Part shown: positions 16,028 through 19,441 of the stretch, in pieces
Layout: each line of letters begins with the position of its first letter
How positions within the stretch are numbered: position 1 is the first letter of the stretch
From: a bacterium
GTDB lineage: Bacteria; Bdellovibrionota_C; UBA2361; RFPC01
DNA: 64,000 bases
Direction: 5' to 3'
NCBI GenBank assembly: GCA_030428205.1
Contig: JAUIBK010000003.1
Span: 62,001 to 126,000, forward strand
Notes under the pieces: generated by a model
What the model was told of the DNA's origin: nothing
Seen by the model: only the letters and a program-made list of their open reading frames with translations
The model's database searches: none
Program-made: the position numbers and the translations under genes

Positions 16028-16095
16028 TTCTAGGCTTACTATTAAATGCATTTATCTCCTTGCAAGTTGAGAGATACGAGAATAATCTAGTGGGT

Positions 16096-16473
16096 ATGAC
16101 GATATATATGTACATCGCCACCGTCACCTGGCTCTGTCTTATCCTCGGCTACACCCAACGTCATACCCCCGCTCGCCATGTTCCCCTTGTTGTTACAGGA
16201 ATTATTGGTGATTTTCTGCTTGTGGGCTATCTACAATTTACAAGAGATGCTGTTCAAACGGCTGCTTCTTTTACTCTTGGCCCACTAGAAATGATCCACA
16301 TCGGGTTTTCCACACTCGCTCTTGTCTTCTATATTCCAACCGCAATTCACGGTTCTAAGATCTACCGTGGCAAAGAAGAGGCAACAACTCGAGAGAAACA
16401 CAAAAAATTTGCCATGCTCGCCCTTGCATGCCGAACACTCGGGTTCATTTTCATGTTCTCTATGCTCAAGTAG
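16096..16473 (+). CDS. Small four-helix membrane protein (DUF420-like layout)
   Basis: About 125 residues from the ATG at 16096, with four predicted membrane segments (near residues 4-18, 27-45, 61-85 and 107-123). A conserved-looking His sits in MIHIGFST and another in REKHKKFAM before the last helix. The arrangement resembles DUF420-type membrane proteins, but I do not recognise the family with certainty. No operon partner: an inverted repeat precedes it and hairpin elements follow. Function unknown. A TTG at 16060 is an alternative start. Confidence 0.55.
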   Translation: MTIYMYIATVTWLCLILGYTQRHTPARHVPLVVTGIIGDFLLVGYLQFTRDAVQTAASFTLGPLEMIHIGFSTLALVFYIPTAIHGSKIYRGKEEATTREKHKKFAMLALACRTLGFIFMFSMLK

Positions 16474-16623: not shown

Positions 16624-16661
16624 TGTAACGTATTGGTGCAGCAAGAAACTTCATAAAGCAT

Positions 16662-16849
16662 CCCTAGCCCGGATATTTCACCAGACTTCGTCGTGAGGGG
16701 AGTGAGGGGGCTGTTTTTTCGGGTTCTCGAGATTTGATCCGGACGACGGTGTGTTGAAACACAACAAGGTCGGATCGAAGCTTGAAGGCACGAAAAAACA
16801 GTGCTATCGCTGCCAGTAGCAGATTTCTGGTGAAATGTCCGGGCTAGGG
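16662..16849. mobile_element. 188-bp foldback (MITE-like) element
   Basis: Terminal inverted repeats of 24 bp (16662-16685 and 16826-16849, CCCTAGCCCGGATATTTCACC at the left end) differ at one position. Inside, further complementary pairs are nested: CTGTTTTTTCG with CGAAAAAACAG, GATCCG with CGGATC, and GTGTGTT with AACACAC-type sequence at the centre, so the whole unit can fold into one long hairpin. No transposase frame is inside and I see no clear target duplication. The right end overlaps the cheA gene on the minus strand and provides its TAG stop. Confidence 0.7.
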
Positions 16850-19441
16850 CTGTACAAGCCTCTCAGCAAGAAAGTTATCTACTTGTAATATGTCTGTCAC
16901 CTTATCTTGAATCACCGAAGTCCCTCGAATGGCAGGATTTCGGCCGATATCATCGAGAAAGAACTCCTCATCAACGATATCAACAATCTTTTCAACGACA
17001 AGCCCAACTGGCTGGTCTCCACTTTTACAGATAACAACATCAAGCTCACGATCGTTATCCTCTGATTGAGAGCCATTGACCGCAAAAACGATAGGAAGAA
17101 TCGAATCTCTATACTGCATTGCTGGTGTGCCACTTGCTATCTCAACAAGTCCGGGATGGACTTTCTCCAAACGATTCACAAGGCTCAACGGGATACCAAC
17201 TCTGTTGCCACCATCAATATGCGCAAGAAGAAGAGTCTCTCTTACTCTTTCGCCATGGAACGATTCAGAGAGTTCTTCAATATGAGTCTCTGTGCCCTCG
17301 ACTCGTGCACGTTCGGCGAGTCTTACAAGATCATAGCCAACACAAAATGGATCTACTTCGAGAACAAGTGCGATTTTCCCATCACCGATCAGAGCAGCTC
17401 CAGAGTAGTAATCACCTTTTGAAACAACGCCAGTGAGTTTCTTTACTACCACCTGTTGAACTCCAAGTACAGAATCAACAAGCAGCGCGTACGTTCTTCG
17501 ATTCGCATTAATCGAGAGAACAATCATCTCTTCTTGATCTTCTAGACTCCTTGCCCCAGAAGATCGTAAAAGATCACACGCAGGAACGATGGGTAAGGCT
17601 ACATCTTGACGATACAGGTAGCGATCTTCTCCAGTAGCAGAGAAAATTTCATCTTCTGTACATGAGAACGCTTCATTGACTTGCTCAAGCGGAATAGCAA
17701 AAAACTGATCGCCCACTTCAAATACAAGTGCTTCAACGATATGTGTTGTTACTGTTTTGGGAATCTCAACAGAGAACCTTGAGCCTTTGCCAGCAGTGCT
17801 TTCAACTTCGATTTTGCCTCCAGCTTGCTCGATATTGCGTTTCACAACATCCATCCCAACACCACGTCCAGAGACATCAGTAACCTCTTTGGCTGTGGAA
17901 ACCCCAGCAGCAAAGAGGAAATCCACCACTTGGCGTTCTGTGAGTTTCTCACCAGCACGTACTAATCCAAGAGACTCAGCTTTTGATTGGATAGCATCAT
18001 AATTTAAGCCGCCTCCATCATCTTTCACCTCTACAAGAATGAACTTCTCAGACTCAGACACAGAGACAGAGATCGTACCTGTCCTCTCTTTTCCACGTTC
18101 CTCACGAATCTCAGGCTTTTCAACGCCATGGTCTGCAGCGTTTCGGACCATGTGAGTCAGTGGCGCATCGAGCATTTCAATCAGACTTTTATCAACCTCA
18201 ATTTCATCGCCTACTGTCTCGACACGAATATCTTTTCCGTGATTCTTAGCAATATCACGGACAAGGCGTGGAACTTTTTGTAGGGCTGTCTTGACTTTAA
18301 CCTTACGAATTGACATCAAGCTCTTTTGGAGATCGCTTGAAAGATGCGAAAATGATTCTGTCAGGCGAGCAAATTCACTTGTCACCTCGTTTGTCCCAGG
18401 AATCCCTGCTAATCTTCTTTCAAGATAAACAAGCATCTCTCCAAGAATAAGCAATTCACCAACATAGGAGAGAAACGTATCGATATGCTCCTCTGCAACA
18501 CGCATCGTTTTCCCAGAGTCCGCCTTAGGTGCGGACTTCTTTTCTTCTGGTGATGGAGAAGGCGAAGCCTGTTGTGCTTCAGGTTGAGGATCTGCTTGTT
18601 CCGTTTCTGAGGATGGGGCTTCTTCTTGTCCTCCCTCGTGCCCTTCTGCCTGAAAGAGCGCAAGAGCCTCTTCAACCATTTCTCGCATCAAGTCATCAAA
18701 ACCAATCGACATGACGTAAGCCTCAAATCCATCGAGGACCTTATGGAGAGCTTCTTTTGTTTCCTCAGACGTTGCCTGTCCGTGCACCTCTTGAAGTACC
18801 GTAAACAACTCATCTGTTGAAGACTGCTCAATAAGCTCTTTTGCTTTCTTGAGAATCGGAGGGAGGCTTTCCTCAGTGACACCATCTCCTATCCCCTCGA
18901 CTCCAGTAGAAAGTACCCGAAGGCTTTCAAGGATACTTTCAAGATCTTCTCCTTCAGGTTTTCCAGCAAATGCTTCTTGCAAGTGGCTTACTCTTTGGAA
19001 TACATCACTCCAGACCTGCACCGGATCAGTTCCTGCATTTTGCTCATCAATAACACGATCAATAAGAACTTGTAGTGCGTCAGCATCTGTAACTTCTGGT
19101 CCGCCTTCTTGCACACGACTGAGCATTGCTCGAAGTTCATCAACACCATCAAGCAAAACGGAGACTAAACTTGGTGTGATAGCATGTGTACCGTCTCGAA
19201 CGAGAGAGAGCAGAGATTCTAGCTCGTGTGCTAGATTGCGCGCACTCGTAAATCCGAAGAAGGGAGCATTTCCTTTAATAGAATGAACAGGTCGAAAAAT
19301 CGCATTAACGGTCTCAATCGGATCTTCCGCATGCTCAATAGAAGCGATAAAAGAATCAACCTCCGAGAGGAGATCGAGAGATTCATCTAAGAAACCTTTG
19401 AGGAGATCGTCATCTACGGATAAGTCCATCGCATTACTCAT
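16844..19441 (-). CDS. Second CheA-type histidine kinase with two CheW-like domains
   Basis: An 865-residue kinase. HPt domain at 1-110 (phospho-His H53 in PVHSIKGNAPFFG), a helical stretch (about 130-270), a Glu/Ser/Pro linker (about 270-310), P3 dimerisation (VAEEHIDTFLSYVGELLILGEML), HATPase (VRNAADHGVEKPEIREERGK, KDDGGGLNYD, SGRGVGMDVVKRN) and two CheW-like domains. It is only distantly like the CheA at 3953. The ATG at 19441 has GGAGGGG upstream and overlaps the preceding receiver gene by 8 bp. Its stop codon lies within the terminal repeat of a foldback element. Likely partners are the receiver proteins encoded upstream in the same operon; no receptor gene is adjacent. Confidence 0.92.
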   Translation of the reverse strand: MSNAMDLSVDDDLLKGFLDESLDLLSEVDSFIASIEHAEDPIETVNAIFRPVHSIKGNAPFFGFTSARNLAHELESLLSLVRDGTHAITPSLVSVLLDGVDELRAMLSRVQEGGPEVTDADALQVLIDRVIDEQNAGTDPVQVWSDVFQRVSHLQEAFAGKPEGEDLESILESLRVLSTGVEGIGDGVTEESLPPILKKAKELIEQSSTDELFTVLQEVHGQATSEETKEALHKVLDGFEAYVMSIGFDDLMREMVEEALALFQAEGHEGGQEEAPSSETEQADPQPEAQQASPSPSPEEKKSAPKADSGKTMRVAEEHIDTFLSYVGELLILGEMLVYLERRLAGIPGTNEVTSEFARLTESFSHLSSDLQKSLMSIRKVKVKTALQKVPRLVRDIAKNHGKDIRVETVGDEIEVDKSLIEMLDAPLTHMVRNAADHGVEKPEIREERGKERTGTISVSVSESEKFILVEVKDDGGGLNYDAIQSKAESLGLVRAGEKLTERQVVDFLFAAGVSTAKEVTDVSGRGVGMDVVKRNIEQAGGKIEVESTAGKGSRFSVEIPKTVTTHIVEALVFEVGDQFFAIPLEQVNEAFSCTEDEIFSATGEDRYLYRQDVALPIVPACDLLRSSGARSLEDQEEMIVLSINANRRTYALLVDSVLGVQQVVVKKLTGVVSKGDYYSGAALIGDGKIALVLEVDPFCVGYDLVRLAERARVEGTETHIEELSESFHGERVRETLLLAHIDGGNRVGIPLSLVNRLEKVHPGLVEIASGTPAMQYRDSILPIVFAVNGSQSEDNDRELDVVICKSGDQPVGLVVEKIVDIVDEEFFLDDIGRNPAIRGTSVIQDKVTDILQVDNFLAERLVQP

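Follow-up and report, generated by a model that had tools for sequence, protein, structure and literature searches.

Insertion sequences of the IS1380 family are recognized by a 4-bp target-site duplication and 5'-CC..GG-3' termini, and the piggyBac elements are their distant eukaryotic relatives (PMC10045372). Bacterial MITEs are short, non-coding and multi-copy, with inverted ends, a target duplication and a strong hairpin; a review of these elements does not mention IS1380 (PMC10969869). The window analysed here, a 64,000-nucleotide stretch of a Bdellovibrionota_C genome, carries beside its second cheA copy an element that has all of these MITE traits, but that is palindromic along its whole length and tied to IS1380. 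With IS1380 insertion sequences it shares CC...GG termini, the 4-bp duplication and a terminal repeat near-identical to CCCGGATATTTCAC of an autonomous element (L179, see below), whereas the window copy has no transposase and spans 176 bp compared with about 1.57 kb. Its CC...GG ends and 4-bp palindromic, TTAA-type target also recall piggyBac, although its group is bacterial, its target is YTAR with CTAG preferred, and the window copy lacks a transposase of its own.

We consider it very probable that this is a non-autonomous IS1380-type MITE, inserted in trans at a CTAG that already ended cheA, and that the gene keeps its own stop and C-terminus. This mechanism is based on the copies, their ends, the 4-bp duplication, autonomous relatives, the empty sites of a sister insertion (L069) and the reconstructed cheA site.

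Extent and fold of the element

The features of the locus are as follows.

16844..19441, minus strand: cheA, second copy, with Hpt, H-kinase_dim, HATPase_c and CheW domains; stop TAG at 16844-16846
16668..16843, no strand assigned: IS1380-type MITE, 176 bp, non-coding, ends CCCGGAYATTTCACC (from genome copies, duplication borders and the fold as one long hairpin)
16664..16667, no strand assigned: distal 4-bp target-site duplication CTAG (from flank comparison and empty-site reconstruction)
16844..16847, no strand assigned: cheA-side 4-bp target-site duplication CTAG, whose complement holds the cheA stop TAG
16668..16691, plus strand: left terminal inverted repeat and subterminal part, CCCGGATATTTCACCAGACTTCGT (from repeat search and copy alignment)
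16826..16843, minus strand: right terminal inverted repeat, reading inward CCCGGACATTTCACCAGA (from repeat search and copy alignment)
16698..16814, no strand assigned: inner imperfect palindrome that extends the hairpin, arms 16698-16741 and 16771-16814 (from repeat search and folding)

A near-perfect inverted repeat (16659-16685 and 16826-16852, 93% complementary) encloses a further, imperfect inner pair, and the terminal repeat did not occur in shuffles of the window. The sequence-only reading had described a non-coding unit that folds on itself along its length, and the folding of the unit strand bears this out (z = -10 against dinucleotide shuffles). That reading set the unit at 188 bp; the inverted repeat stands, but the size does not, as 188 bp takes in both CTAG tetramers and two chance-symmetric bases on each side. 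Specifically, when copies are aligned with their flanks, only CCCGGAYATTTCACC...GGTGAAATGTCCGGG is constant, giving termini of CCCGG...CCGGG and hence CC...GG ends. The outer CC and GG beyond the CTAG differ from copy to copy and, at this locus, reflect the chance symmetry of a single target, CC-CTAG-GG. In an autonomous relative (L180), the flanks are TTAG/TTAG, an asymmetric direct repeat, which places the tetramer outside the inverted repeat. Since the tetramer behaves as a direct repeat in the aligned copies, in L069 and in L180, the element borders fall at 16668-16843; judged from these alignments, the mobile unit is 176 bp and the flanking CTAG is its target duplication.

Copies in the host genome and assignment to IS1380

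Searching with the terminal repeat, as had been suggested from the sequence, recovered six full-length and about six partial copies in the host genome, at unrelated loci and 92-97% identical to the window copy. Some copies look partial because the contigs that carry them (C21 and C55) terminate within the element. Pairwise identity among the six full copies is 92-100%, and two of them (L004 and L005) agree at all 176 bp but lie in different flanking DNA, which suggests fairly recent movement. The flanks are CTAG/CTAG in four of the six, and one side is mutated in the other two (CTAC, CTAA). No match to the window element, or to the IS ends of the gammaproteobacterial genome G059 described below, was found among the plasmid sequences searched.

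Several single loci add detail. Compared with the other copies, one host copy (L006, G000:C38:52548-52730) carries a cluster of four substitutions at element positions 135-142, through all of which its right arm becomes a perfect complement of the left, the signature of quasipalindrome-templated correction. In another genus of the same family (G001), a MITE-like unit at L042 1380-1640 has different ends (CCCGCATTATTCACG) and a CTAA flank; it shares with the window element a 37-nt central hairpin, CCGGACGACGG..CACARCAAGGT, at 84% identity, that is, a conserved core beneath exchanged ends. The 3' end of host truA (VKYSG*; L030 1500-1518, G000:C67) resembles the terminal repeat, with a single mismatch. 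We rejected this solo repeat as a probable chance match, given its inward orientation and the plausibly native C-terminus, VKYSG, that it encodes. We also set aside a viral contig match (L040), which adjoins an antisense ORF opposite a long plus-strand ORF.

Autonomous elements with the same ends, the second object of the suggested search, were found in genomes related to a Thiobacillus MAG, where PF13701 transposases lie between such ends. The L179 element (1324-2892, 1569 bp) has ends CCCGGATATTTCAC and CCCGGATATTTCAT, CTAG/CTAG flanks and a PF13701 transposase (E = 3.5e-162), and the relative L180, flanked by TTAG/TTAG, encodes another (E = 2.5e-158). An IS1380 element in a genome of the same family as the host (L138) is likewise flanked by CTAG/CTAG. 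The L179 element (L179 1-4263) lies between convergent ORFs, one PIG-L-like (a weak match) and the other glycosyltransferase-like (by eye), and both of their TAG stops are inside the duplicated CTAG. Contig breaks about 130 bp within such an end are frequent in the gammaproteobacterial MAG G059, and a frame with an IS1380-like N-terminus begins there, in fragments too short to score, so that their identification as IS1380 ends is suggestive. Eight contigs of this MAG (C16, C95, C103, C104, C127, C161, C168 and C170) begin some 120-220 bp into IS-like ends, for the most part TAGCCCGAATATTTCACC and TAGCCCGGATTTCTCACC, several of them with an IS1380-like transposase start next to the end; these are probably multi-copy elements collapsed by the assembly.

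A profile search of the host genome yielded neither a PF13701 (IS1380) nor a PF13358 (IS630) transposase; the assembly is 92% complete and has contig breaks inside element copies. The missing transposases would mean that the partner has been lost, is unassembled or resides elsewhere.

IS630 elements favour CTAG targets, and the CTAG flanks had initially led us to an IS630/Tc1-type element that duplicates only the 2-bp TA within CTAG. TA is indeed present at all sites. Nonetheless, the R that follows it co-varies on both sides as part of a 4-bp direct repeat (TTAA/TTAA, TTAG/TTAG), autonomous elements with these ends contain PF13701 transposases rather than the DDE_3 partner of an IS630/Tc1-mariner MITE, and the host genome has no PF13358, all of which leave the IS630/Tc1 reading with next to no credibility. 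Autonomous elements with the same ends, an IS1380 transposase and a 4-bp YTAR duplication instead identify an IS1380-type MITE, and the window element has what is expected of an IS1380-derived MITE, namely ends like those of autonomous IS1380, a 4-bp duplication, small size, no coding capacity and multiple copies.

The cheA stop codon and a sister insertion

The minus-strand cheA encodes 865 aa and ends in LAERLVQP*, its TAG being the complement of 16844-16846. The sequence-only reading correctly recognized a miniature transposable element at the very end of cheA, as its copies, inverted ends, target duplication and autonomous relatives attest, but proposed that the TAG lies inside the terminal repeat, that the element thereby supplies the stop codon and that it reset the C-terminus to AERLVQP. 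In fact, the TAG sits within the right-hand CTAG duplication (16844-16847), outside the element. When the element and one CTAG are deleted, the reconstructed empty site reads CTT GCT GAG AGG CTT GTA CAG CCC TAG GGA TGC, with the stop and the LAERLVQP* end unchanged. Because the TAG belongs to duplicated host sequence, neither the stop nor the final residues of cheA depend on the element, and on this reconstruction the TAG at 16844-16846 is the native stop of cheA.

The same conclusion was reached at a sister insertion, where the orthologue comparison proposed as a check on the stop-supply idea refuted it. A related MITE in the Thiobacillus MAG (L069) is flanked by TTAA/TTAA and lies between convergent ORFs, one that encodes 147 aa and has no Pfam match, the other lipB (PF21948, E = 1e-36). 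Four relatives without the element (G061, G067, G065 and G063) align straight across the junction, and their empty junctions (...ATGATCGGGCTTTAA, CTTTAG or CTCTAG) hold a single TTAA, TTAG or CTAG. The left-hand ORF ends at the junction position in all four, while for lipB the end was inspected by eye, in G058 and G061 only. As read from these alignments, the L069 insertion sits on a stop shared by two convergent genes, and the empty sites, with one tetramer and an unchanged gene end, confirm at this locus the rule of a stop-preserving duplication.

A stop brought in by the element, with CheA shortened or altered as a result, might still be argued from the TAG adjoining the repeat and from CTAGCCCGG being the reading of most ends. 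The tetramer, however, varies as a direct repeat independently of the ends (TTAA/TTAA, TTAG/TTAG), is present in the empty sites of the sister insertion, and is accompanied here by a CheA of normal length. The proteins most similar to this CheA (49% identity, from the same family) end within about 3-20 residues of the same conserved segment, with tails that differ in sequence and are too divergent for residue-by-residue comparison; ending near the same conserved position gives no sign of truncation. We therefore regard an element-derived stop as very improbable.

In the preferred model, insertion into a pre-existing stop, an IS1380-family transposase would act on the MITE in trans and, as its family suggests, make a 4-bp staggered cut at YTAR. 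The target would be the CTAG that already formed the cheA end (CC-C TAG), and repair would duplicate the tetramer, leaving a complete CTAG on each side and re-creating all the stops contained in it. The element, which lies between cheA and the convergent ORF 16060-16473, would add only a hairpin-forming 3' untranslated region, and we infer no effect on cheA beyond this 3' UTR. It is possible that the hairpin influences the 3' UTR. It could further have been retained because it serves cheA and the convergent ORF as a bidirectional 3' end or terminator, or stabilises their RNA, given that a very stable hairpin immediately follows the stop, between convergent ORFs, and that several other copies likewise follow stops. 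We find such retention unlikely, considering that a terminator scan of the element found no stem followed by a T-run, that an Rfam search of it returned no match, and that most host copies lie away from stops. Target choice and harmlessness account for the same position, and the insertion model needs no cheA-specific function.

Stop codons as landing sites

Every YTAR holds TAA or TAG, and CTAG and TTAA hold one on both strands, so that insertions at gene ends are harmless. When 101 genomes were searched with the 15-bp end and an unspecified flank, YTAR adjoined 20 of 30 matches, compared with an expected 1.6%. ORFs of at least 100 aa end at 3/20 insertion sides in the host (2.4% of control YTAR sites; P = 0.011), at 4/11 in the related genome G010 (0.8%; P = 1e-6) and at 6/14 in the Thiobacillus MAG (17%; P = 0.02), the controls being YTAR sites in the same DNA. 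Stop codons are thus struck more often than random YTAR sites, but these statistics need to be interpreted as indicative only, since related insertions were pooled, ORFs were uncurated and sides were hand-picked from a listing. Clear gene-end insertions are those at PriA (C-terminal domain complete to residue 497/500), GatB (complete to 481/483, flank GTAG), MotB and, in L038, a GBBH-like protein, together with the L179 element and the ORFs on its two sides. The excess may reflect the cut choice of the transposase or the survival of insertions. CTAG occurs 77 times in the whole window, compared with 247 expected from base composition and about 100 from trinucleotides, and its avoidance inside genes would also push insertions toward gene ends.

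As a kind of element it is unremarkable; what is of interest is its stop-preserving target. In the literature searched (subscription papers, for the most part, and ISfinder were beyond reach), we found no description of CTAG/YTAR targets for IS1380 or of a stop-preserving target. Our results correct a tempting misreading, in which a gene is 'given' its stop codon by an element, and supply a simple, checkable rule in its place: a duplicated target that contains a stop codon makes for a seamless insertion. They also add MITEs of the IS1380 type that target YTAR, from the small phylum of the window (46 genomes in our set), the Thiobacillus MAG and the gammaproteobacterial MAG, and they provide a bacterial counterpart of the TTAA specificity known from piggyBac. 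We tentatively suggest, while thinking the contrary somewhat likelier, that, for this group of IS1380 elements, targeting YTAR is a built-in safe-harbour rule. If true, the elements could insert at gene 3' ends, stops shared by convergent genes included, while re-creating every stop codon, and could build up at gene ends without damage.
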